NCBI RefSeq assembly: GCF_023343835.1
Contig: NC_064447.1
Coordinates: forward strand, 9,320,501-9,384,500
Source: Lagopus muta
Taxonomy: Eukaryota > Chordata > Aves > Galliformes > Phasianidae
DNA: 64,000 nucleotides
Reading direction: 5' to 3'
In this document: positions 1 through 27,600 of the stretch, piece after piece
Numbering within the stretch: the stretch's first letter is position 1
How the letters are laid out: each line of letters opens with the position of its first letter
The notes under the pieces: generated by a model
What the model saw: only the letters and a program-made list of their open reading frames with translations
Told to the model about the DNA's origin: nothing
The model's database searches: none
Translations under genes and position numbers: made by a program

Positions 1-77
1 AGGTGAGATGAATACCAGCACGACCCTGTGAGGATAGTCACACTGGGGTGGCACTGAGCTGAGTTGGTGTCCCACAG

Positions 78-3000
78 TGATGACCGCAGCCCGGAGACCT
101 TCAAGACACGCATTGAAGCTGCCACCCAGATGAAGTCAGTGCTGGGTGCTGAGGAGAAACCCAACTGCCTGATCATCGATGAGATCGACGGCGCGCCCAC
201 TGTGAGTCCTCACCTGGGCTTATGTCTTTGAATCACAGCGTGGTTGGGTTGGAAGGGACCCCAAAACCCCCCAGCCCCACCCCTGCCATGGGCTGTGTGC
301 TCTTCACCAGCTCAGGCTACCCTGGGTCTAGCTGTGGCCTGGGGCAACCACGACTCTAGGCAGCCTGTGCTTCCTCTCTATTGATGCAGCCAGGATAACT
401 ATTGGCCCATAGTTGGCTTCTCATCCATTGAACTCCCAAGTCCTACCCTGCAGGGCTGCTTCCTATGAATTCTTTTCCTGGGGTTGCCCTGGCCTAAGTG
501 CAGCACCATGTCCTTGGCTGTGTAGAACTTCATTAAGTTCATATGGGCCCATTTCTCAAGTTTACATCTGGCCACCATTTGCTTAATTATTACTCTAAAC
601 AGCAAGCACTCGCTTCTGTCCCTTCATTTCTCCCAAGGCCTCCATCACTGTGCTGCTGAACATCATCAACAGCAAGGAACCTGAGGGTGAGGCGGCTGCA
701 AGCGGAGGGCGACGGAGAAGGCGAGAGGGCAGCCTGCTGCTGCGGCCTGTCATCTGCATCTGCAATGACCAGTGCGTGTCAGGAGAGAAGCTGGGACACC
801 TGCCCTAAGGGTGGCTCAGGTGTCATAGAATCTTGGAATGGTTGGGCAGGGAGGAACCTTAAAGATCATAGAACCATAGGGTGATTGGGTTGGAAGCGAC
901 TTTATTAGAACTGTGGAATGATTGGGTTGAAGGGATCCTAAAGATCATAGAACTGTAGGGTGGTTGGCTTGGAAGGGAGCTTGTTAAAACCATGGACTCG
1001 TTGGATTGAAAGAGGCCTTGTAGGTCATTAAATCATAGAACCATAGCATGGTTGGGTTGGAAGGGACCTTGCAGACCCCCAGCCTCAACCCTCTGCCATA
1101 GGCCAGCTGCCCTCCCCTTTTGCCCCACTCCCTCAACTCAGCTCAGGCTGCCCATCCGTGGCCTCAGGCACCTCCAGGGACAGGGAGCCCACAGCTCTAG
1201 GCAGCAGCGCCAGCCCCTCACCACCCTCTGTCCCTGTGCCAGGTATGTCCCTGCGCTCCGACCACTGCGGCAGCAGGCATTCCTGCTCAGCTTCCCCCGG
1301 ACAGCCCCGTCCCGGCTGGCACAGCGCCTTGGGGAGGTATGGATTAGCCCCAGCACTGCCCCCTGCATGGCTGCGTGGCCAGGAGCAGTGCTCAGTTCCC
1401 TTCTCCTACAGATTGCCCAGCAGCAGGGCATGAGGGCGGACATGGGAGCACTGCTGGCACTGTGTGAGAAAACAGAGAATGACATCCGCTCATGCATCAA
1501 CACCCTGCAGGTATGTGTAGTGCCAGGGGCTGGGGGGAGGCAGCACAAGTGGTTGAAAGAACTGGTATGGTTCAGTCTGGAGAAGAGAAGGCTCAGAGGA
1601 GACCTTATGGCTCTCTACAACACCCCAAAGGGAGGTTGTGGCAAGGGCTGGTTGGCCTCTTCTCCCAGGTGACACCAATAGGGTTACGAAAGGGAATGGC
1701 TTTATGTAGTGCTAGGGGAGGTTCAGGTTGGATATTGGGCAACATTTCTTCTCCGAAAGAGAGCGACTGGGCACTGGCACTGCTGCCCAAGGAAAGGGTG
1801 GGATCACCATCCCTGGGAGCGTTCCGGAACTGTGGGAAATGTGGCACAGAGAGATGTGGGGAGTGAGTGAGTGTAGTGGGTTGGTATTGGACTTGCGGAT
1901 CTTAAGGGTCTTCCTCAACCACAATGATTCTGTGGTTGTATTATTTGTTTGTGTCTTGTGTTGCAGTTCCTGCACGGCCGAGGCCAGAAGGAGTTGGATG
2001 TGCGAATGGTGCAGACAATGAGGATTGGCCTGAAGGATCAGAACAAGGGACTCTTCTCCATCTGGCAGGAGATATTCCAGCTCCCACGAGTTCAGAGGTA
2101 AGAAGGGAATTTGTTGGCTGGCACATACTGCATTGTGGGCTCTTTATTCAGAAGCTGCAGCGGAAAAGCCTGAAACATCCTGGAGGCCAGGCTCTATCTC
2201 AGCAGATTTGTATGTTTCAGATGCACCTAATAATTGGGCACAGGCTGCACAAGGGAGTGGTGGGGTCACCGTCCCTGCGGGTGCTGAAGAACTGTGGAGC
2301 TGTGGCACTGAGGGACATGGGTTGGTAGGGATGGGTTGGTGGTCAGACTTGATAATCTTAGAGGGCTTTTCCAACCTTAAAGCAGCTGCCCCATACCAGC
2401 TCAGGCTGCCCAGGGCTACTAGTGCCTGGCCTTGGACACCCCTAGGGATGGGGCAGCCACAGCTATAGGCAGTCTCTGCTCACCCTGTCCCTCCTGCTCT
2501 CTGCAGGCATCACATAGGGATGGATCCCTCGCTGCCCAACCATCTGCTGGCGGATGAGGATGAACTGTCACACCTTGGTGTGAGGACAGCCCTCACTGCC
2601 TCTTCTCACCGCTTCCACCGTGTCCTTCACCTCGCCAGCTCCTCAGGGGAGCAGGAGAAGCTTGCCCAGGTTGGAAAGCTGGGCATGCCAGTTGTTTCCT
2701 TTACTGACTGGGGATGGGGTACAAGGTGCTGGGGCCGAGTTCAGTGGGATTTTCAAAATCCCACCGACTTTGATCCCACTGCTTGGCCACTTGCAGGGTC
2801 TCTATGAGAATTTCCTGAATATGAAGCTGAGGGACTCCAGTTTTGGCTCGGTGTGCCTAGCCCTGGAATGGCTGTGTTTCTCTGACATGCTGAGTAGGGC
2901 TGTGCTGCACAGGCAGAGCTTCCAGCTGATGCGCTACCTGCCCTTCCTGCCCGTGGCATTCCACCTGCTCTTTGCAGCCACCAGCATCCCACGGCTCTCT

Positions 3001-6000
3001 TACCCCAGCAGCCATCATGAGGTGAGTACTAGGAACATGCAGTGCTGGTGGTGCTTCATTCCTCCTGGGGACGTGGCTGAGCCATTTCTTCTATCCCATC
3101 CTTTTCTGTAGGCCCTAGCCAAGCTGAACCACATGCAGAACCTCATGGTATCCATGGTGTCAGGGATCACACCCAGCGCCCGCAGCCGTGCAGGGCAGCA
3201 GTCTCTTGTTCTGGAGGTGCTCTGCCTGCTGCTGGATATCATCGCACCCAAGCTGCGGCCGGTGAGTGTTCCCCTGTGTTCTCTGTGAGTGGCTCCCAGC
3301 CTAGGATGTGTCCCTGTTCTGTGCAGCCAGGCAGGGCTGCTATATGCAATACTAAATCCCATATTTGGAGTTAGCATGAAATTGCAGAATTGGAGGGGAG
3401 GTGGCGCTGGGATCCGCACACATGGGGTTAGGGGCTTGGTGTGAGTGAGGACTTTGGGGCCCCATGCTGGGTGCAGTCCTGTGCCTTTGCCCCATTGTAC
3501 CTGTACCTCTGTGCGTGTCCCCCATGGGCTGCTGGAGGAGAATCCCCTGCTCTGCACCCTATTAAGTGTCCCAAATAGGAAGCAAAACTTCTCCCTGTTC
3601 TGATCTCTGTGGGTGTATAGGGGAGCTAAACTTTCCTTCTCCCTACTGTGATCCTGGTGGGTATTCGTTGTCTGCTCTCATTCACTGAGACGCGAAGCTG
3701 CTGTGGTTTATCTTAATGCTGGGACACTGCTCAGGATGAGCTGTGCTCTCACCCCATTGCTCCTCCCAGGTGAACACACAGCTCTACAGCCTGAAGGAGA
3801 AGCAGCAGCTGGCAGCACTCATCAGCACTATGCTAGCCTATAACCTCACCTACCACCAGGAGCGCCTGCCTGAGGGCCAGTATGTCTACAAGCTCGACCC
3901 GTGAGTCCCAAGGGTTGGGAGAGGGCGTTTGGATTGAAAATAACGTTCATAGAAGATTTGGGGGCTGGTTTTTTGTTGTGTGTTTTTTTTTTTTTTTTTT
4001 TTAAAGGAAAAGCCCTGTGCCCCCTGGGTTGGCTCAGAGCTGCTTCTGGTGTGGTGTCTCCCCTGGGTCATTGGCAGGCTGGCGCCAAGGCAGGGCTGTG
4101 CTGCTGTTAATCAAGTTGGGAGAAAGGAGGCAGCTGTCCTTGGCTCTCAGCAGGGTGGTTGTAAGCTGGTAGTGGAAGAGCTGAGGCTGACAGCAAGAAA
4201 CCTGGGGTGTCACAGGCTGGGAGCACCTGTGTGCTCAGTTAGCAAGGATGGGGTAGGCAGGGTGCTGTGGGTACTGGCCCTGCTCCTGCAGGCTGCTGGG
4301 TGTTCACAGGGTGGGAGCTGCGTGGGGATGAAAATACAACTAGCAGCCTTGGGTTTATTTGCTGACTTTGTGTGTTCATAGCGTGACAGTGCCCTGCTCA
4401 ACTCCTTGCTGTGCTGGACCCACAGAGCTGTACACGCTCCTGGGTTTTTGGTGACATAGCACAGACCTGACCGGAGCTGGGAGCAATGCTAATGTCTTCC
4501 TGCTACAAAGTTAATTACAAAATTAGCCTCTGTTAAATCAAGCAGCTGTATCTAATTAGAGAACAGTGAGTTATTTTTTTTTTTTCCCCACAGAAACGCC
4601 CACAGGGCTGCTGGGGTGGGGGCATGGCCTCCCTGTGCTGCCCACCTTGCACTGCTCAGCCCACCCCATGCTGTGTTGAGCAGAGCTGTTCTAGCAGCAA
4701 CACCTCTTGTTTGCTCTGAGTTGTCACAAGTGCAAAGCCATCCGATGGCACGCTCAGCTCAGTGGAGTCTGCAGCTCATGGGAAGGGTTTCACTGCTGCT
4801 GGAGCCTGAGCTGCAGTGCTGTGACTTTGGCTTTCCCGTGCAATCTGCTCAGCACAGAGCACTGTGCGATTTCCTGTTCCTGCACTAAAACCGAGCTGAA
4901 AAGCACATAATCTCCTCGGGATTGTCATTGAGCTGTGGGGCAGCACAGCTCTGCATGTCCTATGCTATTTGCTGGGTGTCTTTGCACATTGATGTTAACT
5001 ATGCTGACCTGGAGAGGGCAGCAATGGGGAAACTGAGTCATCTCCCCCACGCTGGGGTGGGGAGAGGACAGGGCTGGAAGTCAGATCTTGCTGTGTTTAA
5101 ACCCTTCTGCAAAGGGATGGGGCAGCAAGTCCCACTGAGCTCAGTCTGCCCTGCTGATTTGTGTGTTTGTGCCCAGTGTTGGCTCTTTGTTCACGAGGGA
5201 CTGATGCTCTCCCCTCCTCCCTGCAGGAATGTGGAGGATGTGTGCAGGTTCCCTGACCTGCCAGCCCGCAAGCAGCTCACCTACCAGGCCAAGCAGCTCA
5301 TTGCCCATGAGATTGAGATGGAGAAGATGCGGAGGACTGAGGCAGTGCTGCAGGCACGGAACCTCAGCGAGGTGGGGAGGGGAAGGGAGTGGGCTGCCGG
5401 GGGGTACAGCACCTGCAGGTCCTGGCCTGGGGTGCAGGTGGGCAGTGGGATCATAAATAGGATTGTTAAGGTTGGAAAAGTCCTCTAAGATCATCGAGTC
5501 CAGCCATGAATCAAGTCCTTAGGGATGTTGAGGGGATCCTCAAAAGCAGCAGAGACCTCAAAAGGAGTCTGGGGGTGGGCGCAGCTGGAAGTTGCATGGG
5601 GTTACACAGTGCCTCTGCCCATGGATGGCAGCAGAGGTACAGCTGCAGGCTTTGTGCTCTGCACATGGAAATCCAGGATTAACCCCCCTGTCCCTCCCCC
5701 TCACCCCACATCTGCCTGGGGCTTGCAGGGCAGCACAGCTAACCCAGAAACAGGACAAAAAGACCATTCACTCTGAGTTAAATCTCAGAAACCCTCACCT
5801 TTCTCAATCAGTGATGAGGAGGGAATTTCACTTTCCCTGCCTGTACACATCTTCCCTGGGTTGCCTGGGCTCTGAGCACCTGATGGGGCTGTGGGCATTC
5901 CTGTTCAGTGCAGGCAATGTGACCAGGTGATATTTAGAGGTTCTTTCCAACTCGGCCCATGTGGCTCTGCCTGTCCTGCCTGGTGCCAGGGGATAATTGG

Positions 6001-6271
6001 TTCCTGGGAGACCCTTGTATGATTCTATGGTTCTTGTAGTTTCTCTGGGGACACCCGTGGCACAGAACCCTCTCTGGGGATTTCTTGTTTACATGGTGCC
6101 AACGTGCAGTCCCCATGCAGGATGCCCCAGGTGCTGCCTTGTGCTCATCTGGAGCTGAACCTGATGACAGATCCTTCCCATGTCCTTGAGGTACTGCAAA
6201 CCAGATAGGTGGCAAATTATAGACTCTTAGTAAGCTTTTTATCCATAGCACACACAAAAAAGCACTTATCC

Positions 6272-6326
<55 letters not shown>

Positions 6327-7564
6327 CTGAGGGCTTTTCCCTTTCCTGGTACCCCCAGAGGCTGTGCTCAGAGCTCTTCTCCCTGCAGGAGCCAGCAGAG
6401 ATGGGGGATGTGGAGATGGGGGCCGGAGGACCAGCAGCACCCCACAACCATCAGCAGCGCCTGGAGCACATTGTGAGGAGGGCAGCGGTGCAGGACAAGG
6501 TGAGGGGGCTGTGACACCCCCAGGACACTCCTGCCCCATCTCCTTCCCTACCAACTTGTGCTGTTCCATTGTTCTTCCTCTCCGTTGCTGCTGTTTTGGT
6601 TCTTTTTTTCTTTTTTTTTTTTCTGTTTCTGTTAATAGAAATGTTATAAAATAGCTGACAGTTGGGCACTCCTTGCAGAGAGAACTTAATTAGTGTTAGG
6701 GTGGAGTGGCCTTTACCTACCAGCAGCTCTGCAGCTGCCCTATGCCTGGAGATACTGGTGTCCTGCAGGGAGCTGTGGGCACGTGGTGCAACCCATGTCT
6801 GCAAAGTCGGGAGGAGTTGGGGTGCCTTCAGTGCAGTCTAAAGCACCCAAATCCTTTGGGGTTGCAGATTGCCCTGCTGGAGCCAAGCTCTGTGCCACTG
6901 CCCCATGTCCTGGGCTGAACCTGGGGCTCTGCCCATCAGCAAAGCAAACATTGCAGTTTGTTTTTTCCTCCAGGTTTTTGAATGTTGTTTGCATTTTACC
7001 AAGGCCTTCCTGCAGGATTTGCATGCGGGTCCTGCCCCATGGCTTCCTCCCATCATGGGATTTTGGATGGATCAATGAGCAGCCCACTGTGGGCAAGGAG
7101 AGGCTCCTGCAGCTGCGCTCTGCCTTGTTCACTTCTCTTTGCCTATTTCTCTGTGTGCTTTGCCCCCAGGCTCTACAGGGCAACCTGACTGCTGCTTGTT
7201 CTGTTTTTTACAGCCTGAGACTGACTTCTTTGGGCGGCCAATCCCACGGCAGCAATCAGCTCCAGTCCCAGGTAGGTGGCAGAGGGACGGGGTGGCCCCT
7301 TGTACCACCCCCTACACTGGGGTGGGGGAGCCCCACCTTGCACGAGGGGCTGTGTGGAGGGAGTGGGTGCAGCAGCATGAAGGTGCAATGGGAAAGGTCT
7401 TTGTCTCCGTGTCACCCTGCCCTGCAGAAGCTCAGCCCTCAGAGTGCGATGCCATCGAGAGCCAAATGGGCAAAGCTGTGGGGCGCAGTGATGTGTGGTT
7501 CCGCTTCAACGAGGGGGTGTCCAACGCTGTGCGGAGGAACCTCTACATCAGGGACCTGCTGTAG
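78..7564 (+). CDS. CHTF18: CHTF18, C-terminal 13 coding exons (5' part outside window)
   Basis: Subunit of the alternative clamp loader CTF18-RFC, which handles PCNA at replication forks and supports sister-chromatid cohesion in the nucleus. Exons: 78-201, 638-771, 1243-1336, 1412-1510, 1967-2097, 2507-2669, 2797-3021, 3112-3261, 3770-3900, 5227-5371, 6389-6499, 7214-7271, 7428-7564. All introns are GT-AG and all junctions keep frame, giving about 566 residues of a family near 970 in human. The first exon starts at SDDRSPETF and carries the Walker B segment LIIDEID of the AAA+ core; the next ends with ICICNDQ (sensor 1 region). Later exons give INTLQ, the RFC-like collar, and the strongly conserved end WFRFNEGVSNAVRR...LYIRDLL. 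No breaks are seen. Exon 638-771 holds an Arg-rich stretch (GGRRRRREG). CR1 fragments crowd introns 2, 4 and 5 of this part. Identification rests on close match to remembered human CHTF18. Confidence 0.96.
225..385 (-). repeat. CR1 LINE fragment
   Basis: Antisense CR1 3' region: the phrases GGTTGGGTTGGAAGGGACC and CTCAGGCTACCCTGGG are diverged CR1 tail sequence read from its 3' end. It lies in the CHTF18 intron after exon 78-201. Confidence 0.75.
824..1231 (-). repeat. CR1 LINE fragment with tandemly expanded 3' end
   Basis: The body (about 1034-1231) is an ordinary antisense CR1 tail. Its 3' end is repeated about six times, with units starting near 824, 867, 906, 946, 986 and 1034 (39-48 bp steps). 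Each unit has the pattern CATAGAAyyrTrGGrTGrTTGG followed by an AAGGGAyCTT-like segment. The element stops about 12 bp before the CHTF18 acceptor at 1242/1243. Confidence 0.8.
1566..1940 (+). repeat. CR1 LINE 3' fragment
   Basis: A sense-strand CR1 tail of about 375 bp. It contains CTGGAGAAGAGAAGGCTC, GGTTGGATATTGGGCAACAT, GGATCACCATCCCTGGGAG and a terminal TGATTCTGTGG. It ends about 25 bp before the CHTF18 acceptor at 1966/1967. Confidence 0.85.
2230..2385 (+). repeat. CR1 LINE 3' fragment
   Basis: Sense CR1 tail: AGTGGTGGGGTCACCGTCCC, then GACTTGATAATCTTAGAGGG and TTTTCCAACCTTAAA at its end. It joins head-on to the antisense CR1 piece that follows. Confidence 0.8.
2386..2492 (-). repeat. 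CR1 LINE fragment
   Basis: Antisense CR1 piece (CAGCTCAGGCTGCCCAGGG, then GGACACCCCTAGGGATGGGG). It stops about 15 bp before the CHTF18 acceptor at 2506/2507, so the pyrimidine tract sits right at its edge. Confidence 0.7.
3901..5226. other. CHTF18 intron, 1.3 kb
   Basis: The intron between coding exons 3770-3900 and 5227-5371. It holds a T20 run at 3983-4002 and otherwise unique sequence. I see no exon, RNA gene or recognisable transposon in it. Confidence 0.7.
5452..5530 (-). repeat. CR1 LINE fragment
   Basis: Short antisense CR1 tail with AGGTTGGAAAAGTCCTCTAA and GATCATCGAGTCCAGCC, inside a CHTF18 intron. Confidence 0.75.
5865..6040 (+). repeat. CR1 LINE 3' fragment
   Basis: Sense CR1 tail: GAGCACCTGATGGGGCTGTG, then TTTAGAGGTTCTTTCCAACTC and a terminal TGATTCTATGGTTCT. 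Diverged, and possibly interrupted around 5960-6010. Confidence 0.65.
6275..6323. repeat. (AC)n microsatellite
   Basis: About 24 uninterrupted AC units, ending 65 bp before the CHTF18 acceptor at 6388/6389. A short imperfect copy lies just upstream (6249-6256). Confidence 0.97.
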
Positions 7565-8091: not shown

Positions 8092-8447
8092 TCAGAGGAT
8101 GCTGCATTTCCCTTTCTCCACCCAGGGGTTGTTCTTCATCAGCTCTGGGTTCAGGAAGGGGTCTTCAGGAATGCCATCCTCTATCCACTTCACAAACCTG
8201 CAGGGAGAGCACAGTGGTCACAGAGCCTTCCTTGGCCACTCACCCCCTTCCCTCCATGGCTTTGTAGCAGTGCTCAGCCCGGTGTGTGGGAAAGCTCTGC
8301 CCATCTCAGCCCCCATCACACCACCGCTCCCTGCCCTGTGCCCACTCACTCAGGTATCGTTTTGGAGGACATCTCCCGCTTGTAGGCCAGCTGGTACTTC
8401 AGGCTCTCCACCTCCTTCTTCCACTGGGGCAGGTCCCACTCATCCAT
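8092..8447 (-). CDS. GNG13: GNG13, G-protein gamma-13 subunit (67 aa, complete)
   Basis: Gamma subunit that pairs with a G-protein beta subunit at the plasma membrane; in mammals it serves taste cells, retinal bipolar cells and olfactory neurons. Two coding exons: 8350-8447 (ATG at 8447) and 8092-8197 (TGA at 8092-8094), joined by a 152-bp GT-AG intron within the codon GA|G. The protein begins MDEWDLPQWKKEVESLKYQL, the helical GGL domain. It continues with SKTIPEFVKWIEDGIPEDPF and NPELMKNNPW, and ends with a CSIL CaaX box; the final Leu predicts geranylgeranylation at that Cys. Length equals human GNG13 (67), and most residues match what I recall of it. The coding start exon has an acceptor at 8468/8469, so the 5' UTR is split. 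No defect is seen. Confidence 0.96.
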
Positions 8448-10818: not shown

Positions 10819-12670
10819 CATCTCTATTTATATGTCTATATCTAACCTATGTCTGTGCAGACACTGCCCCATCCCATATCCGCGGTCGCCTTCCACCCCA
10901 ATCAATGGCGCTGCTGTGTGCCTAATGGGCTCCTGCCGCCCTCTGCCTGCCACGGGGCTGGGATGCAGCCAGGGATCAATGGGGCGATGCTGAGCTGGCA
11001 GCACCTCACTTGGAGGCAATGGCACCGCTGCATAAGGCCCCGTGGGGCTGGTCTGTTTTGGGAACATGTTCCTTTAGGCCATCGGCCACCCATTAACGAG
11101 GCCAGCGATACTGCGCGCTGCCCCGCGGCTTATCTCGCTGTTGACATCAATGGTAATCTCCCAGCACTGCCTCCAAACAATCATGGGAAAGGCTGGGCTT
11201 TAGCAATAAAACCACACTGAAGAAGGCTGATTGGATTTCTGCGGATTTTCTGCAATCTGACTGCAGCGGGGCCAGGCACAGCCACCAGAACCCAGCACAG
11301 CAAATTTCACAGCCACCAGCTCCAAGGCAATGGTGGCCCAAGGCCTTTCTTCTATGGACAAAGCAGCCTCGGTGCTCTTGGCAGAATTTGGGCAGTGCCA
11401 CGTGCACCAAATCCCCCACTGGGGCCACGGGGGGACCTGCACAGCAGATTGCAGGGCCGCATTAGTTACCCTGCCTGGCTTTGTAGATTAAAGAATTATG
11501 AACTCCCAAAGTTTTGCAATATTAATGATTGTAGCCATCTGTTAATCTGGCAGCCAGAAACAAGCCGGGTTGTGCTTTGCTCAGTCCAGTTATTAAAACG
11601 TGGTATTTTTGGTGTGGTGGGCAGCTGGGAGAGCTGCTCCTTGGGGCTGGCCCAGCAGTGAGCTGCGTCCTGCTCTTATCACTGCTCTGGGGGCACCTAT
11701 GGGCAGTGCCAGCACTGGTTGATGCACAGTGAAGCACACCAAGAATAGCATTTTATGGTGAGAGACCCCAAAAGTACCAACCTGCAGCCCCCATCCGCCC
11801 CTGGAAGCACAGCTGCTAATTAAAGCTCTCTGTGGAATGGCATTTTAGATAAATCAGTTCTCCAGTACACACTCTGAAGGGACAAACTCATTTAGCAGGT
11901 TAATTAGCGTCCTTGGCAGAAACGATATCAGCTCTGTCCCAGCCCACAGGGCAGTGTCAGTGCTGGGAAGCTTTCCTATAAAAACCCACCTGTGCCTGCG
12001 TGGCTGAGGGGCTCCTCATTCTGCACTTGAAAGGATGGAGGCATAGTTTGTATCTATACAGATCTAGGACGATCTCAGCCACGTTGGGATAGGCAGCACT
12101 TGTGCACCTTAAACAGAGTTGAAAGAGCTCCATGACACATGACAGGTGGGCTTTCTCCTTACACATCACCCCAAGAAGTCCCCATCCATCCCACAACCGC
12201 TCAGTTCACTAGCTATGCATCCCAAAACCACCCAATGATGCACATATCCGACTCAGTCTGCTCATCACAGCCAGGCACTCCTGGTCCACACACGCATTAC
12301 CTTCCTGGGTTGGACAACAGCATTCCTATTGCACACTTCTAGAATCCCACTTTCAGCTTAAATTTTTTTGGTCAATACATGCACCCACTTGCAAATGTTC
12401 TGCTTGCTGTTTGGCACACGCTTGCAAAAAACAGAGTTCTGTTTGCTAAATACAATATCTGGATCAGGCAGCTGTAGATGCGCATTTTCTACTTCAAACT
12501 ACGTCCTTCAATTTTTAATGAGTTCTGTTCTTCTCTATTATACTTGGAGCAAAGCAAGAAAAAAAAAAAAAATAATAGAACAGATCAGCCTTCAATTTAC
12601 CTTTGGGTTTTTACACTGGCTGTAGTCCCAGGGCACCAGCACGATGTTTTCTGCTGTGGCTGATGAAGCG

Positions 12671-13049: not shown

Positions 13050-13067
13050 TTTATTAAATCTTTTATT
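13050..13067 (-). terminator. Polyadenylation signals of the 19-exon minus-strand gene
   Basis: Two TTTATT words (13050-13055, 13062-13067) read AATAAA on the minus strand, about 950 bp past the TGA at 14014-14016. The 3' UTR would thus cover about 13030-14013, within which I see no repeats. Confidence 0.65.
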
Positions 13068-14013
13068 AAACCTTTTTTCCTTTTAGATGCATGTACACTT
13101 TCTGTAGAAAAGCTGGACAATAACTTAACTGAGTTTGGACAGAATATATCAACATGTTCAAAAGTCTTACCCTGCCTTCCAAACCACAGCACACACGTAT
13201 CATGTTGGGGCAAAGAAGAGCACAACTGGGCAAGAAATACTTCCCTATTTCTACTTCCACAACTCCCAAAAAAGTCAGCTCTTACTATTATAATACTTGA
13301 AATAACACAGAGCCTTCAGCACCAGTTTAAGTCACCCATTGTAGAACGTTTAAGAAAGCCTACAATTGGAATGCCTTGAAAAAAATAGATTTTTTTATAT
13401 ACACAAACAAAACAAGCTACTGCTTTCTTCATTCTGATTTCTTAGAGTAAGAAAGCTTGAGGCAAACCAATACTAACTGGAGTGATTTTTATAATTATAC
13501 ACTATACAAACACAAGGAGTGCAAACAGCATCCTAATTTACACTGCTGTACACCTTTGGAGAGGCAGTTTTCCTAATTTAAGCAGCTTGTCTAACTGCTT
13601 TCTTAGCAGTTCTGCTGGCTTTCCACTCAGAAAACACCTGTGCAACTCGTAAGCAAAGGACTTTTGATGCTTTCCACTTTGTTTCTCTCCCCTCGTTCCT
13701 CTTGCCATTGCTGTCTCTGGTGAGCATTTCTCTATAGATCAGCTTTTCTTAAGATGTGTAGCTCCTGTCTCTAAACGACAGCTTAATACATGTGCCTGTA
13801 AAAAGGAATTTTCCAGAACACACCTACCAGGATACAAATGCTGTTCACCATCTAGATCTGAGATTTTATTATCACACTTGGTCTGAAGCCAGTTTTTAGG
13901 TGTTCATTTCAAGCGAGGGAAGAGATGACAACCAAAACAGAACACAAAAGACTCCAGGAAGAGATGTGTTGGACCAAGGCAAGTTGAAAAATACGCTTGA
14001 AAATTTGGCCAGA

Positions 14014-17000
14014 TCACAATTTTTCAAGAACATCCATGAACTTTGAGACTTCGTGATGAGTTGTGGCACCAAGGGGCAGCTGCATTAACCTCTGAACAGA
14101 GGAGGAAGAAAGAGATTAATGCACATCAGTAACTTGTCATTTTTACAATGAGCAATACTACTAAATAATTATTTCCAACATGTATCAAGTATTAACCATC
14201 ACTTAGCAAATCATCTCCTATCAATATATTTCTCAAAAGTGATGTATTTGTCATTTACACACTCTTTTGCTTAGCTCTAGAACACAGAGATACTTACTGC
14301 ATTGTGAAAGAAGTTGTAAAGGTGCTTTGCCCACGGACACCTGAAAAACAGTTTAAGAAAGTTCTCAACCCATTTTCTTACAGGGACAAATCTGCTCCCA
14401 CTTTCACCCACCCCAACTACTCCATTCAGCTTCCAAATACAGATGAATTTAGCATCAGATATACAGCTTAAAAAAAAAAACAAAACACAAAGGCAGACCA
14501 TAATAAAAAGGATCCAATCAGATCCTGTCCTTGAATGCTGCTAGAGATGCAAAAAGGCATTTATTAGAGTTGTAAATTGGCTCAGTAGAACTCAACTCAA
14601 AGAACTGAGCGAGATCAGGAATTTTATTTCCTGAAATACACACAACAAAGGCTGGTGAGAAGAGAAACAGAAGCATTTTGCAAGGAAGGTTAACTCATGT
14701 CTATGGTTTCTACTTAGGACAGTTACAAAGAAGTGAATTCTCTGCTACTACGTGTGAGCTAAAAGTGCCAGAGCAGGCAATTACTGCCTTCTGGTATCTA
14801 ACCCTTGAGTCACTGCATTTTAAGACTATCATGCCAATACATTTGTGTCTCTTACTTTACAGTGTACGATCCTTTACAGCCTAGAAGAGAAGGGAGCAAG
14901 GACTGCACTTCGGATCAGCCAGCAGTCTGAAGTGACGCGTCAAGAGTCACAGAATCACCAAGGTTGGAAAAGACCTCCAAGATCATCCAACCAGTGTGTT
15001 GCTATCATTGGCAACCTAAATACTGTACTCAGATCTTCTCAGAACTCCGTTTTCTACTCTGTGCTGCTGTAATGCAAGTGGTCCCCCTGACAAGCACAGC
15101 CTTAACCACGTCCTCAGTCTGTGTCAGCACACAGATGTTCCTGAATCTTCGGTTGAACATGGGGATCTATTTTCTCACCACTACATGAAGCATTTCTTAC
15201 AAGTTTAGAGGACATTTTGTTACCATCAGTATACCCAGCGTACTCTGATAAGTACACAACAATACTCACTTTGTGCTTTTCATAGCACAAGACTCCGGGA
15301 AGTCAGAAGGCCATTTGGTTGATCAGGAACACAGAGCAATTGCAGATCTTTTCAACTCATCACATTTGATATCTTTACTGTTGCTTATAATAAGGAAGTC
15401 CATGAAATAGGAGTGAATTGTGAGTGAAGCTTGTTAATTAAGGAAACTACTAGCACTGTTGCAACATACAGTGATTGACTATTTGGCTATGATAAAGATT
15501 AACACTTACACTTGCAAGTTCTCTGTAATTATATCCAGAGCCAACACACCAATGGATTGCAGTATCCTGTTTCTGCAAGTCAGGAACAGGCAAACAAATT
15601 CACCCACGTACTGGGGACCAAGGTTTTGCCATCTAAGTGATATAAAACCAGAAAACAGAAAGCATCAGTTCAGCAGCAGAGACAAATGGCAATATCTGTG
15701 GCTTACCTCCTGACACCGCTTTCTCACTCTTCAGTCTGCTCTAAAAGTAGGGGCATTTAATTATAGGAATTCAGATTCACAGTCCCCCCTCTGATTAGAG
15801 GGACATAGCAATGCCATGATCACATATTCTTCAGATCATCACAGTTATTTCAGACATGCCCAGCCAATAATGCATTGCTGCACAAGAAATACTAGGGCCT
15901 CACAGCTACCTGAATACAGAACTGAGTCAGATCGGTGGCCCCATCCAGTTTAGTGTCCTGGCTCTGTGACAAGTATATTTGTTTTGGCCTTCTGCAAACC
16001 AGACACATGAAGGGAGATGCCCTATATGCCCTCTGTCTGAAGGAATGGTTGCTGAGGAGCAGTGCTAGCTCATATAGATCTGAAGGAAATCATTTTCTAG
16101 ATACACTCATCTTCAAGAGCTCTTCAGCCTCCTCAGGTCTGGAGTGCTGTTTTTATGCTAGCTGTACTGTACAATCTTCCAGCAATGTTCCTGCTCTTCA
16201 ATCTATATATACCTTTCATTTTCACAGCATCCTCTGTCAACCAAATTCACAGCTCCAAGTAATACAACCTTAATCCATCTTGGTTTTGCCATATTAGATT
16301 TCCTTTAAGACTCTTGCTTAAGAGGAAACCACAAACAATTATTCCCTGGTCACCATCAGCACATCATATGAGATTTTGCAGACCACTGCCACAGCCCCAG
16401 GCTGGGATACCCAAGCCATGTCAACCAGATTCTCACAGGGATCAACCCATGTTTCAAGAACCACCACCAGGATCACACACAACATTTACATGAACTATGC
16501 ACCTGCTTCCCCCCCCCTCCCCCATTACTTTCTTATTGGCTCCTAGCATTTTCTTCACATTACCCAAAGCACTGGGCTGGTCATTTTCAAAGAGCTAAAG
16601 CTCGCATCTTTGCTAAATGTTCCTGCTGTGAGCCTGCTGTTAAATGTTTCCAAAAACAGACAGACAGATTTCAGGAAGTGTTTACTCACAGTTTCAGCAT
16701 TGTTGCTTTCTGACAATTCAGATCTCTCAAAATCAGATCGACAACGCCATGAAGGATGTGCTTATCATAGGAAAGATGATTCAGTAACAGCCTCAGAGCC
16801 CAGAAGTTGTTCTAGGAAGAGACAAAATAAGGCCACTAATTCAACTTAATTCTCAACTGTTTCTTAAACAAAATAAAACCCTAAAAACAACAGAAGAAAT
16901 TAAAGGCCAGTAAAGCTTCAGAGGAACAAAACTAGGCTAAATGCATGCAAGAATCTCCAAGTAGGTGTTACATTCATTTTAAATATAATCCACTTTAATC

Positions 17001-20000
17001 TCTTCAAACTGAAGTCCATCTCCAGGACTCACCCCAAATGCCAGGAATATCTCTAGGAAGGAAGTTAAATATGGGAGTTCACAGATAACCATCTGTTGTA
17101 CTGCTTGCACTGCAAGAATAAGACAAGCCTCCTGGTGCAACTGCAGGAAGAGATATAAAAAAAGAAGAGATTTATATTTAAAAGTCCCCTTTCCCACTAC
17201 TTGTATATTGCCTCCAGTCCAATCAGCAGTAAGCTACTACCACACTAGTCACATCTGCTGGATGACAGATACTACATTCAGAAGAATCTTACAAAGACTG
17301 AAGGAAGGGTGAATAAAACAGATACTTCTAGTTATGTAGTGTGTTTCATCTGAGGATCTCAAAGTCCACCTAGAAATATGAGGTCTCTCACCAGACAGAA
17401 GCAGAAGAATTAATGGTACAAAATGTCTGGTCCAGGAGTCGCATACTGTAAGGTAAAGCTAAACGTAGTGCCCACAGAACAACTAGGAAGAGAATGAAAT
17501 TGCTTCTTAGGTAAGTGATCATATTTAACAAACTATTTGTCTCAAAACACCTTTAAACATGCTCCATCATTCACAACAAGATGAGAAATCCCAGGCTATT
17601 CTGAGTTTTGAGACAAACAGGCTGTCAGTCTCAAAGGACAGCCTCCCATCTGAACCAAACACAAGATTACTCTGAGAAGTTACTACAGAATCACTGATAA
17701 CTAACCGTCCCACTTTAGGAGATACATAAATTTGGGCAGTGATGAATTAAAACTTTTGGATGGATTGCAGACAGTGCCAGTTCTGAACACAAAAAACCAG
17801 TCAGGGTCTGTTCAGATAACAGCTCTGACCTTTAGATTGTGCCAAGACCAGTCCTACGCCACTCCCCCAAAACTTCAAACCTTATCTCAGAAGCTCTTTA
17901 CGATAATCCAGGTGTTCTCAATACTGCAGTATCTTCAGGTACCTTGCAATAAAACAGTCAATTCCCTTGTTGACAGATGCACACTTACCTGGGAGAAAAT
18001 ACCAGGTGGGAAAGAAACGTTAAGTTTTGCCTTCAGTTCCTGGAAGAGACCATCACTGGCAACCAGCACCCCCTGCAACAGGAGTGACGAGTCAGAAGGA
18101 AGAGAAAGGGTGCCTTCACAGGCATCAAACCACACCCAGCATCTTATCTACTACTTCAGAGTGCTTTTACTTACTTTTCAGTGTCTTTACGAGTGAGGTT
18201 GAATTGTTCATCATACTCAGAGAAAGCTGAATTTCTACAGCACTAACTAAACAATGTCATACAACCTCTTAATTTTAATCCACTGTGCTTAGCAGACATT
18301 TATTTCTGTTCTTGTGGAAAAAAAAAAGATCCAGGCACTGTCTCCTAGAGCTATTTTAACACATTTAAATTTCTTTCCTATGCATTGTGCTGTTACATGA
18401 TTCATCTCAATATTAAACAATACAGAACAGGTATCTGGCACTGAGCTGCAAGCAGAGTTAATCTATTCATTGTTGCACTTGCCACTCACAAATAACAACT
18501 TCTTGTCAAGTATTTCACTTGCACATACTGTAAGAATTTGTGATGAGGTAAAGTCAGCCTTAATATTTAACTGAACAAGCCAACATGCACATGGAATGAA
18601 GCACTGCATAAAACCATACAACAGATTCTTCCATCTCAGAGCACAGCAGCAGTTATTTATTACCTGCTGAAATGTAACTGGGGGCTCTTTCACTGTCAGA
18701 GGGCGAAGGCGCCCATTTCTTTCCAGGAAACAGCTACTGCCCATAATCATGATGAAGGAACCCCAGCATTTAGGCTGAAATACAACAGAAAATTTGTTTT
18801 ACAGGATCAAATACATCTTTAGCAACTTTTAATGATCAAAGTAAGTCTCCTTGATATGCATTCTCTTCCTTCTAGCCCCTCTAACAGAACTCCCAGACAT
18901 GTTTACACAAATCACAGGTTAATGTTTGATCTGTCATCTTGAGAAACAGCCATTTTGCCTCACCTGTAGAGATGAGGCTTTTTTCCACCCCTTTTAATTC
19001 TAAGGAGTATGAACAGAAACAACAGACCTGCTGCTGGTGTAACCATTACAGCTCCACTGAAAAGATGACAGTAGCACAACTTAATAGAGAAAATTCCTCC
19101 TGAACAGCTGAGCAGTAAGAACATATCGTTCAACATATATATGGCAAATTTGCTCATCATTCCATCATTGCTATGGCACGCTGCTAAATTCACTGAAGCT
19201 ACAAGAGCTGCACACAAGCAGGATTTGTCATAGTTTTATCAGTAAAGCTCCAGCTGAGTCAATGGATCACTCACAACTCGACACGTTCTGTGAGAGCACA
19301 GAAATGCTATCTGAGGAAAACGTTTGCAGACTTATTTCCACCACGTCCCCAAACCAATCCTGCAGTGCACAAAAGCTTCACAGAGGTCTGAACTACTCAT
19401 AGGATTCTGGCAGTAAATCCTTTCATTAGATAAGCAACTGGACAAAGCAGGTAAGGTACAAAACCACTGAACAGGCCGTATAAGTAGTTCTAACATGGAC
19501 TCACATTTCTGTACAGTGACAGATTGCTGTAAAGGAGTTTGAATGCCTGCTTGATCAGAACACCATCTTTCATTGGAGACCCTGTGAGAAGAAAAAAATT
19601 AAGATGCATCTTTTATTCCTTGAGTAACCAGAGAGTATGAACAGACTCAAAATACTGCTGAAGACACACTTCTACAGAAACCTAGAGGAAAAACAAGCAT
19701 CTACAGCTATTTTACTATATTTTACAGTAGTTTTTCTATTCAGAACCTCCATCAACTGTGAAATGCTGTTCTGGAAAGCTGTAAAAAGAACCTGAGTACA
19801 GTTTAGACAAAACCATCACAGCAGGTGACCCCTAACAAAGTCTTACTATGCAAATCGGACTACAGAATCCCATGCTTCTATGAACTCTAATAACTGAACA
19901 TCTCCAAAATCAACCTTTCACTTCAGAGTACATTTGACAAGTAGATCCAGAGGTCGGTGGCTCTGCCTGTGGCAGGGAGTTTGGAACTTGTTGATCCTTG

Positions 20001-23000
20001 GGGTCCCTTCCAACCCAAGCCATTCTGTGATTCAATATACAGGTATATGCAATACAATATATATTCAGAGACCCCTTCCATCTGAAAACTTTCACTCTCG
20101 AGATACAGTACATCACAGTGCTGAGCTATGCGCTGCCATTTGTAATGCTATGATATAATAGAGAGCTTTTTGTTTTCTTTTAATGGGCTTTTCACAGCAA
20201 AAGAGCTTCACAACTGACAAAAGGCAACATTCTCTGTGCACTGTGCTACACATGCTCAAATATAAAGACACTCTACCTGCTTAATGACCTGCACTGTGCT
20301 TTAGTCCAGACAACTTACATTTGGATTCAGAGCCTCCCCCAAACATTTCTGAATTTAAAGAGCTGCAATTAAATAAGATCCTAAACATATAAGAGGAAAA
20401 AAAAAATATAATAATAATAATAAAAAAATCACTTGCCAACTGTAACCCAGGGCCCAGGGTCCTGAATATCCTTCCCAGCAGGGACACTGCCTGTTCTGAA
20501 TATCTTCAGGTAGACCTCAAACTGAAGAGGAGTTAGTCGGCACGCAGTGCAGCACGCAAGGCTATTGATGGGAAACAACAGTGAATGTGTAGCATCAGTG
20601 AAGTCTCCAGTTTTACACAAATAGAATGGGATTTTATCTCGAAGGTCTCTTAGCCTGGAAAGAAGAAATAAATGAGCACCTGATTTTTGTTCATTCAGAA
20701 GCTTTACAACATGTATGCATACACCCAGTTAATTCTGACAGCTAAGAAGTTACATCCAATAAGGCAGAACTGAGCTGCAGTGCTGTATTACTTTCACTTG
20801 GCAAACAGCTTTCAAAATCCTACTGCCTTTCATTCTGTTTGACTAGATGTAGAAAAAGAGACTGGGACACAGTTTGAGGGCAATGAAACAAACAAAAGCC
20901 ATTTACCCTTTGGTGTCACTGCATTTCACAGCTCTCAGGTAGCGAACAACTTCTTTATAGCTGGAGAAAGTGGAAGAGAAAAGAAGTGTTAGGCTGTACA
21001 CAACAGGTCAATGACTAGTCAGTTACTCAGTTACTACAGTTAATGAAGCAAAACAGCAGTCCTTCTCACATAAAAGCACTGTGAAACAGGACAGCACAAC
21101 TGGCAGAACTGCTGAAAGCTTCAAAAGCCACTTCTGAATACAGCAGATATCTAAATTAATCCACAGATTATCTCTGTGCACTAGGAACAAATAAAAGCAG
21201 GCTAAGAAAAGACAAGTCTATAAGAGGACTAAAGATCGCTTACTTTTTTATTTTTAAAACTGTCCTCCAAATTGTCAGTGTTTGATGAACTGATTTTGTT
21301 TTTAAACATCAAATTCCAAAAGCCACTGAGATTAGTGAAACAAAACAATTACCTGATTCTAACAGCTTCACAAAGCGCTGGCCTTGCTAATAAGTAATGG
21401 CAACAAACAGCTTCAAATATACCCTCTTTTGTATATTTCCCCATAATGCAAAATTCTTGCAGAGGTTAGGAAAGCACTGCATGGCAATTAGTAGCATGAA
21501 CAAATACAAAAGTTGGGGTTTGAAAATGGAAAAAACAAAGCAAGCCCAAACCGATCGTACTTTTTATTTTCGACTAATTTCTCCACTCGAGCCTCTATGA
21601 CAGGAAGCACTTCCCACAGAAACGTCTTCCTTCCCTTCTGTGTCCTTTGCCCTGTGGTGTTCTGTCCTTTCAAAACCGTGGTCAGTAACACATGATCCCA
21701 AGGCACGACATTCAAGCTGGAAGCACAAGAATGAGGAAATGCTGAGGCCTCTGGTGGTATGCACAATGCGTTTCAATGAAGTGACACTAAGACTTATTCA
21801 TAAAACATTCTGAAGTTCACAGTTCAATTTCAGGGAAAGAAAATAGAAGGATTTATACAAACAAGAGCTTAGCCATAACATCAAACAGTTTCTCACTATG
21901 CTAAGGGTGGGACACAAAGCAGAGAGTACTGAAGCCTTCCAGTGAACACCTTCAGCAAAAATCAGTGAAAGAACCATTCCCTAAGTCAGTTTACAAATTA
22001 GCCAAAGGCATAAAACCAGACTCCATAAACAAAGAACATACCTATTTGAGAAGGCAAAACAGTGACATGGAAGCGAGATGGACTGAAAAAAATTAACAAA
22101 TTTCTCATATAAACTTTTTGGGAAGTCACACAACACCAGCATCTTCTGAAGTCGTGTTGTGATCCTGTGTTTTAAAAAGAAAAGCAAAAGCAAAAATAAA
22201 AATCTGCTACCTTTAAGTGAAATAACACTCAGATTTTTGAGAAAATCCTGTGCAAAACTGCTCTGCAGAGATTACATACAGATTTCTTTGGTTAAGCTTC
22301 AGAGAGTCTGGGTTTATCTTCAAGTTCGTGCTTCAATATTTGTAGCCAATACAGGTATTAACTCTATGTAATTATTTTCATATTTCATTGTCAGTGAAAC
22401 TGAGCATTCTGTGGTCTCAGGTTTTAAAGGTGATCCCCTCCAAGTATGTGAGAAGCACTGAAGCAACACACTGTGAGCTCAGTAAGGAAGCTGCCTGACC
22501 CAAGTCAGCGAAACCATTTTTGTCTTAACTGAAAACTGGAGACAACACACTAAGGTAAAGAAGAGCTCAATTATTTTGAAAGTGGGGGGGGAAGGCAAAA
22601 AAATAAATAAGAAATAACCATTACTGTTCTTTTAAAGTAAAAAAATTAATAAATTCAAGAATAGTCGTATAAAATGAAAACTGATACAGGATTTAGGTTA
22701 TACCTGTCACAGAGGTGAGAACATTAATTGTTTTTGAGTGCTCCTAAAAAAAAATTAATTCTTAATTCATTAACCTTCTGTTGCAAGCAAATTTCAGGTT
22801 AAAGGTGAAAAGCTAAAACGAGAAATGAATTAAGCCAAGTGAGCTGGATGTCCTCATTCATTATCCTCTAGGGGAACTTCACTATGTTACATCCCTGACT
22901 GCTCCATCCCAGAGGAGGACTGCAAGGCTGCTGTTTTGACTCTGAACAGGTGCTATTTATTGTTAGGCTTACTAACCACAAGTAGCTACCCAACACCATC

Positions 23001-26000
23001 TTCTGGTCTGGCCTAAAAGAGCATTCCTGGACTCAAAGTACTTCATCATCTTGGCTTTGAGATTTCCCCCCCCCACTGTGGGAAGGCTGACTGCTTATGT
23101 GGCTGTCAAACAAGGCAGACGTGGCTCTTGTCCTTCACAAAAAGGGAGAAATTCACAACTGAGCTGCTAAACAATCTATTTGTACTATCTGCAGCAAACA
23201 GCTACAGAATACAATAGTTTGCTGAGGTCTCTGACTGGTACACACTGTTGTTTGTAACCTTGTCCATCCTTACCCACCTGCAGCCTACACATGCAGGCAG
23301 CTGGCTCTCTCTGCTCTGCTCAAACAGAGTCTAATAGAACACAGCAAGGTCCTGCTGCCTGATGCTACAGAATGAACGGAGTAAATACACTTATTTTAGA
23401 GCTCTGCAAGTTCATTTTTGTTTCTTTTAAGAGCTAAAACATTCATTTTTCCTTTATGCCTTTGAATAGAAGCCCTTTTAAGTGTGCTTCAAGTGTAGTC
23501 ACAAAGTTTGCATCCAGCAACCATCTCTTACCTTTATGTAATAAGTCAAGTCTTACCTTTGCAACAAACAAGGGACAGCAAGCTTTAGTGAAGCAGTATG
23601 ACCAAGGTTCTGCCAGCTTCTGTGGGGGGACAGGAGAAAGAAAAGCAGTTTTATTTCCTTTTGAGAAGAAAATAAAGACTAAGCACTAACTGTGGAACTG
23701 GATACTCACATAGCAGGGTCTTTATGAAGGGTTATCTCTCTAGCTGCTCCCAGAAGCATGACAGCAGCAGCTTTAGGACTCTCTCTTTCAGCCTGATTTA
23801 AAAATCTTGTTACCAGTGCATAAACTCCAGAATACCTGAGAAAGTTAAGTAGTCCATGAGATAAAGCATCTGCAGTGACATACTCCATGAACAAATGGTA
23901 ATGATGACCATTCTAGTTTGAAAGCAAACTGATTCACCTTTCCCTGAAAAGAATCTGTGAAACAGGAACGTGGCATTTGCACAGGCATTACTTTCAGAAT
24001 TTTAAGAGCACACACCATCAAGTAAAAGCCAAACTCAATTCTGACAAATCAGTAAAAACACAGGGGTTTGTTTCATGCTTTTCCAAGCTGCTGTAACCAG
24101 GAATGCTACCATCTTAGCACAGCACAACAGGTATCTTTTAAGATGCATTTAGGACGATTCTTAAAATACATCCAAGTTAAATTCAGTTCAATTGCTCACT
24201 GATCAATTAAGACCCCTCCATTACGTTGCTGTTTCAGGTGCCACGAAACTGCTTATGTTACTTAAGGAAAGAAAACCTGCAGCGACCAACATGCACTGCT
24301 AATTCTGTCATCACTTACTTGTATACAATCTCTGTGCTGCGTGATCTGCAGACACCACACTGGCCAGGAGGCAGCTTTGAGACACAAAAGCATTCTTGCT
24401 CTGTGGGAGCTATTCTCACTCCAATTAAATACTTATTATATTCCACAGAAAGCTCCTGGATAAAGCTTATTAGAAGGTTTCCTAAGAGGACAGAGAGGCG
24501 GAGATGTGAAACTTTCAGCGCAAAAAAATTATTTCAAAACCAAAATAAAGACATTCATAGGTAAAATATTTGATAAATCACTTGCACCCAATCTTAAGAG
24601 CCAGGCATGATTTGCTGCTTCTTCCAAGGGGAAGAAAGCAGGACACAAGTGTGGAACTGCAGACCTGTCTGCTCTGAGTACAGCCCAGAGGACAGCAGAA
24701 CTGAGCTGCTACGTAAATAACTCACCAAAGCTTTACAAGGACAGTTGTGGTCCAGACAAGCTGTCCTTGTAGATTACAAGTAGAGCCACAGACCGGGTAG
24801 CCACAGTGAGCCAAAGGTCTGCCAGGACAGAATGAGAACCCTTGCTTACCACCATGCCGAAGGTCTGCATCTATGTCTGTGAGCTCCAAATTGAACATGA
24901 CAAGAACGCCAGCCAAGGCAAAATCACGCCGTTCTTTCCAGAATTTGCTTTTGTTATGTGCATTGCAGTGACAGAGGGAAGAAGTTGTCCAATTCTGGCA
25001 CTGTTTCATAACAAGGGAAAGACAGAGAAAAGCATTTTATTGTCCCCAAAGTTCAGCACATCAAAAGTTAGTTCCTCTCTACAAGTGAAGGACTGGAATT
25101 CATTTTATGCCTTGCTTCTGTGGTTTTACCTGGCTTTGTAATTTGACAGGAGAGGCAAGAGGACAACATGGCAATGCCCTTCTACCATAACTTAAAAAGA
25201 ATAATAATAATAAAAAAGACTTCCTCCTCCCCTCCCCAGTAATTTACTCTAATTCCTGAATACTTATGGAGACACTTAGGTTGACATCTTCCTCACAGAA
25301 TACACTATGAGTAATCAAAGCATTGTTTCTGAACATTCACCCCAACTTTACTCACAGTTCAAAGTTTTCAGAATTCTAAAAAACAACTAAAAAAACCTAC
25401 AAAAAAATAAACCTCCAATCAAACAACAAAGCAAACAATCTTCCCCTCTTCTCAAAGCAAAACCAAAACCCACCAACCAACACATCCCTCCCCACACCTC
25501 ATCCCTCCCCTTCTTAGGGTTAGGAAAATCTAGAAATTCAATATTTGCCTAGTGCAGTGAGAAACAACCTGATTTAGTAATTACATTCCATGAAGTCCCT
25601 GGCAAACTGGATGAACATGTGTCTATATCAAGTGAATATCCTACAATACTGTACTACTGGAAATAAACCTAGATGGTGACCATACTTAACGCTGTGAAGC
25701 TGATGGATAGAAGCATTTAGAGTAGGAACTATTCAAATAATCAAACTCTACATAGCATTTATTGTTTCAGTGTGCATAAGAGTGATTTCTTTTATAGACT
25801 GTTAAATAATTCAGTTTACTCAAATTTGAGCATTTCTTGATTTCAGCTCATCCTTACCTCAGAAGCCAGCTTATCACAAATGTAGCAGTAGCACTGACTA
25901 CAAAAATCAGCATTTTTTCCAAGGGGTGAGCACGTTTCACATTCCATTCGTCTACAGAATTGAAAAACAGAGCATTATTTACAAAGCAGTTCGTGCACTT

Positions 26001-26788
26001 ACCCAACTCTACTTACACTTTCAGCTGTTAAGAGTTTTAACAAGCCTGCATGACTATATGTGGGAAAGGAAACCTCCATATTAGCCTCCACATCATTGAA
26101 CGTACTCAAATGAGTGTGATGTACAGTCATATCTTGCATGGGGCATCACATTTGCTTGTTTACAGAAAGTAACCACTAGTTCACACTCCTCATCCACAAT
26201 CTCTTCACATTTCTTCTCTTCCAGGGCAGTCTTCACTGTATAGAAGAGAAAACAGTCTGACTCAGTATGAAAAGCCTACAATGTCCTTACAAAAATCAAC
26301 CAGCTACTGATACTTATTCTTTAAAACACTTTAAGGCACAAGCTTTCTTATCATTTCACCTGGTGCAAATAAGAAAGATACACTGGCTTGGAACAAAAGA
26401 TTCCTACACACTCAAAAGGCATGTAATAACAAAAAGATCTGGTCACCACTGAAAATGGCTCAGAGAAGTTACTGATATTTTAAAACTACCCAGTAGTACT
26501 CTTTAAAACAACCTATGATGGCAAAGACAACAGCAGTTTGTTTGGTTTTTATTTATTTTTGAACTACTTTGATTTCCTCGCAGCCCAAAGCCGCATTTCA
26601 AAGGCGTCAGATCTCATATTTTACTTCAGGTTGTTTCAAAAGTTAATTTGCAGCACCTCACAGCTGAGAAGAGCACAGTACTCACCCAAGGGGTCCACTA
26701 TGAGAACTGAGTTCCCATGTGTGCTGTCGTCTTCATCGTCGCTGATCAGGATCACATCTCGCTCTTTCTCTTCTTCAGAGGGCCCCAT
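14014..26788 (-). CDS. Unrecognised 708-residue protein with SIM-like N terminus and Cys/His module
   Basis: Nineteen coding exons, all in frame: 26686-26788 (ATG), 26106-26235, 25858-25951, 24850-25000, 24319-24481, 23710-23835, 23557-23619, 22042-22164, 21561-21716, 20907-20960, 20437-20654, 19505-19581, 18664-18774, 17989-18072, 17033-17140, 16690-16811, 15510-15632, 14298-14340, 14014-14091 (TGA). One donor (after 20437) is GC; the rest are GT. Residues 12-21, [10 protein letters not shown], fit a SUMO-interacting motif. Residues about 60-125 hold [27 protein letters not shown] and [12 protein letters not shown], probably metal-binding. Residues about 140-215 include [20 protein letters not shown] and a Cys-rich piece (CGVCRS). 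The rest looks helical, repeat-like and without catalytic motifs; WQNLG occurs twice. The ATG follows a split 5' UTR. I recall similar CYCYxCD...C..W...HC.A segments in uncharacterised plant and animal proteins, but cannot name this gene. A nuclear, SUMO-linked role is inference only. Confidence 0.88.
14945..15005 (-). repeat. CR1 LINE fragment
   Basis: Antisense CR1 end: AGTCACAGAATCACCAAGG, TTGGAAAAGACCTCCAAGAT, CATCCAACC. It lies in the intron between exons 15510-15632 and 14298-14340. Confidence 0.8.
19945..20036 (+). repeat. CR1 LINE 3' fragment
   Basis: Sense CR1 tail: GGTGGCTCTGCCTGTGGCAG, TTGATCCTTGGGGTCCCTTC, then CAACCCAAGCCATTCTGTGA. It lies in the intron between exons 20437-20654 and 19505-19581 of the minus-strand gene. 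Confidence 0.8.
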
Positions 26789-27099
26789 AGTCACTGAGCT
26801 CCAAAGGAAAGGCCCAGTTCAGCAGAAAACTGCTCAGAGAAAGCAGGAAGGGTAGAAAAGGCCTCTTCCAAAGCCAAGCTCTGCGTACATCACACTATGA
26901 ATAGCAACGTTCAACACTTCAGTGGAATCAGAAGCTCAAACAACATTCCACTTTCCATCCACATTTGAGAGAACGCTAAAATAATAACGAAGAGGTGGGA
27001 AGAGAATTGGAAAGGAGAAAAAGCAAACAACAAAAAAAAAAACAAGAAGAAAAGGGTGAGACCTGGCATTCCTCTGCTGGGCCCACCGTAGTGAACTGC

Positions 27100-27600
27100 G
27101 GTTATTTCCCCTCGCAGACCCGCAGTAGCACCGCAGCCCCCCCTCCTCTCCCCGCCCCAAACGCTCCCGACCCCCCCCAGCCCCCCGCCCGCTTCGGCCC
27201 TCCTTCAACCGCCGCCCCCCAACTGTAAGCTGCGCTCCCAGAGGAGCCCCGCGCCCCCTCATCCCGCTGCCCCTCACCGCCCCGATTCTCGCCCGTTCCC
27301 CACGAGGCCCGAGGACCCCCGGCTCACCTTCAGCGCGCAGATCCGTCCTGCCCGCCGCCCCAGCCCGCCACTCTTTGAACGAACAATCACTTCCGAAGCG
27401 GCCACCCCCGGAAGGGGTTCGGGCGGCGACGCTACGCGCTCTATTTCCGCCCTGGCAGAGAGCTGGATGGTCGCTGGGGGCCGCCATCTTTGATGAGGGC
27501 AGAATGGGGCGGGGCTGTAGGGAACCGCCATCTTTGGTGAAGGCAGGGCGAAGTGGTGTCGTAGGGGGGGCCGCCATCTTTGATAAGGGCAGGACGGGGG
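27100..27600 (-). promoter_or_regulatory. CpG-island promoter and non-coding first exon of the 19-exon gene
   Basis: The region is dense in CpG and C/G runs, unlike its surroundings. A minus-strand donor (GCTGAAG|GTGAGCC) at 27327/27328 marks the end of a non-coding exon 1 starting somewhere in about 27400-27580. It would join an acceptor just upstream of the ATG at 26788. No TATA box is seen; the YY1-type motifs fit a housekeeping promoter. Confidence 0.7.
27481..27582 (-). promoter_or_regulatory. Three tandem YY1-type motifs
   Basis: CCGCCATCTTTG occurs at 27481-27492, 27525-27536 and 27571-27582. On the minus strand each reads CAAAGATGGCGG, matching the YY1 core AAGATGGCGGC in the sense direction of the gene. 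The motifs begin 44-46 bp tandem units that also share GAGGGCAG/GAAGGCAG/AAGGGCAG. Confidence 0.75.

Follow-up and report, generated by a model that had tools for sequence, protein, structure and literature searches.

An intact 19-exon bird gene next to GNG13 encodes a 708-residue protein with SIM-like cores and a Cys/His module

The genome of Lagopus muta contains an intact, spliced, protein-coding gene that has GNG13 on one side and LMF1 as the next gene beyond it, and for which we found no paralog other than a retrocopy. The 708-residue product begins with two SIM-like cores that are followed by a Cys/His module and a long C-terminal part. From these sequence features the protein is predicted to be a SUMO-binding, zinc-binding nuclear adaptor, a reading to which we give about an even chance of being right. 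Being a vertebrate gene, it probably already carries an annotation as an uncharacterised locus, and no publications on it were found in the literature searched.

Gene model and transcript ends

The window, that is, the whole stretch of DNA analysed, comprises 64,000 nt of assembly GCF_023343835.1 (NC_064447.1, 9,320,501-9,384,500, forward strand), and all coordinates below are window positions unless a contig is named. The gene model was built on the minus strand from open frames and splice signals, as a hand-checked chain of exons. This chain was preferred to the first automatic gene models, which lacked several of the exons of the final model. The gene has 19 coding exons running from an ATG at 26788 to a stop codon that ends at 14014 (Table 1), and the coding sequence of 2127 nt, including the one stop, specifies 708 residues. 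These are the figures given in an earlier note on this DNA, which had described 19 exons joined in frame and which our rebuilding reproduces.

An acceptor is present at 26793, five bases ahead of the ATG, making it likely that a 5' non-coding exon, lying within the CpG island, is spliced onto exon 1. Besides the pair of polyadenylation signals, a likely transcript end, there is an AATAAA at 13865 and an ATTAAA at 12514. Because these signals lie past 14014, the transcript extends beyond the interval 14014..26788 to which the earlier note had assigned the gene.

The gene body is AT-rich, with a GC fraction of 0.39-0.41 in the six 2-kb blocks between 14 and 26 kb. Among the other blocks of the window, 24 of 26 have a GC fraction of 0.46-0.61, the exceptions being those at 12 and 28 kb. 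A segment at ~14940-15000, in the intron that separates exon 17 from exon 18, resembles a CR1 repeat.

Table 1 Features of the gene and its neighbours, in window coordinates
Feature	Position	Strand	Remarks
CHTF18-like exons	61..7561	+	One sub-threshold Pfam match
GNG13, two coding exons	8095..8447	-	G-gamma Pfam match, E 8.5e-15, exons joined
AATAAA pair, likely transcript end	13050..13067	-	Signals at 13062 and 13050
Exon 19, with stop	14014..14091	-	
Exon 18	14298..14340	-	
Exon 17	15510..15632	-	Weak acceptor, 0.9 bits
Exon 16	16690..16811	-	
Exon 15	17033..17140	-	
Exon 14	17989..18072	-	
Exon 13	18664..18774	-	
Exon 12	19505..19581	-	
Exon 11	20437..20654	-	GC donor GCAAGT, required by frame
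Exon 10	20907..20960	-	
Exon 9	21561..21716	-	Weak donor, 0.2 bits
Exon 8	22042..22164	-	
Exon 7	23557..23619	-	
Exon 6	23710..23835	-	
Exon 5, second Cys cluster C190/C192/C201/C204	24319..24481	-	
Exon 4, module end	24850..25000	-	Weak acceptor; C7 retrocopy agrees within two bases
Exon 3, module core (MECETCSP...)	25858..25951	-	C7 retrocopy: start exact, end within two bases
Exon 2, Cys/His module begins	26106..26235	-	Weak donor GTACGT, with exact support from C7 retrocopy
Exon 1, with start codon and both SIM-like cores	26686..26788	-	Donor GTGAGT; exon-like stretch with acceptor 26793
CpG island, probable site of promoter and 5' non-coding exon	27000..27600	-	Possible donor after 27328

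Neighbouring genes

The gene order is CHTF18(+), GNG13(-), the 708-residue gene(-) and LMF1(-). The exons of GNG13 are 82% and 85% identical to human GNG13, and the G-gamma domain that they encode together bears out the earlier claim that the new gene adjoins GNG13. To the left of GNG13 are plus-strand CHTF18-like exons; of five pieces of them compared with Pfam, one matches an RFC1-type AAA lid (E 0.00038, 20.3 bits, under the cut-off of 34.9). A search for LMF1 with an E limit of 0.001 found nothing inside the window. Its nearest exon found is on the minus strand 3 kb past the window, with the other exons further right, and the six exons together cover residues 240-564 of human LMF1 at 61-73% identity.

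Between the gene and LMF1, the part of the window from 27700 to 64000 (~36 kb) has only isolated exon-like stretches, six of which are listed for each strand. The window was also scanned for Rfam families and for tRNAs, and neither turned up. The human order at 16p13.3 is CHTF18(+), GNG13(-), LMF1(-). Since LMF1 comes next on the same strand here, as in that order, the gene lies within a conserved block. The earlier note suggested that the gene may be absent or moved in mammals; a mammalian counterpart, if there is one, would be expected between GNG13 and LMF1.

Support for the exon structure

The required reading frame is open in all 19 exons and is the sole open frame in 14 of them. In a region-wide ranking, which scored the GC donor of exon 11 without a GC penalty, 31 of the 36 splice sites fall within the top 5.0% of their kind. 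The five that rank lower are two donors, of exons 2 and 9, and three acceptors, of exons 4, 6 (top 5.3%) and 17. We regard five sites as doubtful, namely the exon 11 GC donor, the exon 2 donor (-1.8 bits), the exon 4 acceptor (0.1), and the two weak sites of exons 9 and 17. A GT donor is available in exon 11 four bases downstream of GCAAGT and puts the coding sequence out of frame, and frame is regained by using the GC donor together with the second of two donors of exon 17. The gene therefore has one GC-AG intron. The retrocopy described below backs two of the doubtful sites, the exon 2 donor and, within two bases, the exon 4 acceptor. Frame was the sole basis for choosing the other three (exon 11 GC donor, exon 9 donor and exon 17 acceptor).

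An exon-chaining script that takes no homology input was run on the gene strand, with the opposite strand and 20 first-order Markov sequences drawn from the same dinucleotide chain as controls. The gene strand scored 96.8, the opposite strand 9.1 and the random sequences between 1.4 and 16.4. The script's best chain also has 19 exons and shares its start and stop with the 708-residue model; it is 1458 nt long, with 11 exons that coincide exactly with exons of the model and 8 that differ. As the best chain is not the model itself, the full model draws in addition on three other lines of support, namely the frame test, reading by hand and the retrocopy. The frame test, the chain score relative to controls and the retrocopy agree with one another that the gene is real and intact, as had been proposed.

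A processed retrocopy on another contig

Searching the genome with the protein gave 22 matches from 26 candidates scored: 19 fall at the locus itself (contig C18), while contig C7 has 2 and contig C59 has 1. The C59 match (E 0.24) has 26% identity and an internal stop, and was set aside as chance. Beyond the copy on C7, this search of the bird's own genome returned no paralog.

The C7 copy (10876321-10876597 of that contig, minus strand) is an intronless stretch of 269 bp that is 92% identical to positions 171-438 of the coding sequence, covering exons 2-4. Compared with the unspliced gene it resolves into the segments 26168-26106, 25951-25858 and 25002-24890, which coincide exactly with the positions where the model ends exon 2 and begins exon 3, and leave the exon 3/4 join ambiguous by two bases; GT-AG signals settle this join at 25858/25000. 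That the copy lacks introns and brings exons 2, 3 and 4 together where the model predicts indicates that it was copied from spliced RNA, which would mean that an ancestor transcribed the gene in its germ line. Differences between copy and gene are spread evenly over the three codon positions (7, 7 and 6 in 268 aligned) and the frame is shifted by one base, on which grounds we take the retrocopy to be dead. Processed retrocopies are scarce in birds. Where RNA data are missing, such a copy can back splice sites that would otherwise be doubtful.

Features of the protein

By reading, the first SIM-like core is VILI followed by SDDEDD (residues 12-21), so that it leads into an acidic stretch, and the second is VLIV (residues 28-31). 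SIM-like strings are short and common. Residues 59-124 include 15 Cys or His residues (C59, H67, C72, H75, C82, C85, C95, C98, C100, C103, C110, C119, H120, C121 and H124), and about this span is likely to be a zinc module. A second Cys cluster follows at residues 190-204, and Cys accounts for 34 of the 708 residues overall. The earlier note had proposed a long helical tail. A crude propensity table puts helix above strand in only 6 of the 27 20-residue blocks from residue 161 on, too poor an index to decide the matter. Both the SIM-like start and the Cys/His module reported in the earlier note are present in the translation.

No Pfam match was obtained with 10 stop-to-stop pieces (E up to 1) or with the entire protein (E up to 10). 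When the protein was submitted as three pieces, again at E up to 10, only two models appeared, both sub-threshold: PHD_Oberon (PF07227) on the Cys/His module (E 0.075, 13.3 bits, below its cut-off of 28.8) and, in the middle of the protein, pAdhesive_8 (E 0.16, 12.1 bits, cut-off 27). With no Pfam domain above its cut-off, the protein has no known catalytic domain. Sequence searches of the PDB at E up to 10 gave no match to either the whole protein or the module. The earlier note could not assign the product to a named family, and neither Pfam nor the PDB has a match to the protein as a whole.

With an E limit of 10, the protein gave no hit to CANIN (PF14816), the domain of SLF2/FAM178, in a search in which the HMMER filters discard most weak matches; in this genome all 7 of its 7 rows are on contigs C8 and C30, away from the locus. 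Three further collections, from which vertebrates and plants are absent by design, were also searched, so that a negative outcome there carries little weight for a vertebrate gene. In viral contigs 2 stretches fitted a pattern with the module as query and none was confirmed, in prokaryote genomes 32 stretches fitted with the whole protein as query and none was confirmed, and in phages the module had no match.

A candidate family

The Cys/His module may be that of the plant RIN13 (RPM1-interacting protein 13)-like / zebrafish zgc:112980 family, PANTHER PTHR33443. Plant RIN13-like proteins have the order H-x-R..C..H-x-F ... FCxxCYCYxCD..A..C..W ... HCxA ... W...R. A CYC[YF]xCD core with HCxA, W and R downstream is found in the 708-residue protein. 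The family and the bird protein would have in common the order of Cys, His, Trp and Arg, a CYCYVCD-like core, the downstream HCxA...W...R and an acidic, SIM-like N terminus. They differ in that the bird protein runs ~580 residues further past the module.

Nothing on zgc:112980, PTHR33443 or strings from the module was found in the literature searched, and no title among the matches listed dealt with a relative of RIN13 in animals. The zebrafish name under which PANTHER lists the family hints that it has no human member. RPM1 and PAD4 are not known from birds. In plant immunity, RIN13 can drive PAD4 into the nucleus, according to a review (PMC8831314).

Discussion

As a nuclear adaptor, the 708-residue protein would use the two hydrophobic cores near its N terminus as SUMO-interacting motifs, and its Cys/His module would fold around zinc and bind a partner, which could be a protein or a nucleic acid. 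The long C-terminal part would then be a scaffold linking the SIMs and the module to a third partner. The protein may belong to the RIN13-like/zgc:112980 family, which spans the eukaryotes and is not known to have a Pfam model.

Two other functions need to be weighed against that of an adaptor. The module could be a cross-braced zinc finger of PHD-like or RING-like type that reads histones, as in a chromatin reader, or recruits an E2, as in a SUMO-targeted ubiquitin ligase. The weak PHD_Oberon match spans the module, and SIMs beside a zinc module are the layout of a SUMO-targeted ligase. We nevertheless consider a reader or ligase unlikely, as the match scores far under its curated cut-off, no other PHD, RING or B-box model hits the module at E up to 10 and the protein as a whole has no Pfam match. 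Less likely again is a protein of the type of SIMC1, a cofactor of SMC5/6, in which N-terminal SIMs and an Nse5-like helical C terminus would act in SMC5/6 loading via SLF2 and to which a Cys/His module would have been added. SIMC1 resembles the bird protein in having SIMs at the N terminus and a long C-terminal part, in the bird protein one that Pfam does not match, but the sections of its description that we could consult name no Cys/His module (PMC9708086). The CANIN search also speaks against this kinship, as the domain gave no match to the protein at E up to 10 and matches in the genome only on the two other contigs.

A different objection is that the locus is decayed or misjoined, so that the model would combine exons of more than one gene or describe a pseudogene. 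The five doubtful splice sites, one of them a GC donor, and the departure of the script's best chain from the model in 8 of 19 exons would fit such a locus. Against it stand the open frame in every exon, a chain score far above those of the controls and a retrocopy derived from a spliced transcript, and we think it very improbable. The nuclear adaptor remains the reading that we prefer for the product of the gene.

In its widest form, this reading would make the protein a SUMO-dependent nuclear adaptor of ancient eukaryotic origin that carries a zinc module, its gene being kept in birds as a single copy flanked by GNG13 and LMF1 but lost from mammals; we hold that full combination to be unlikely. 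Were the gene the bird member of a family common to plants and fish and missing in mammals, a conserved eukaryotic protein would have been invisible to work on human and mouse cells, and chicken DT40 cells would offer a ready system in which to study the gene.
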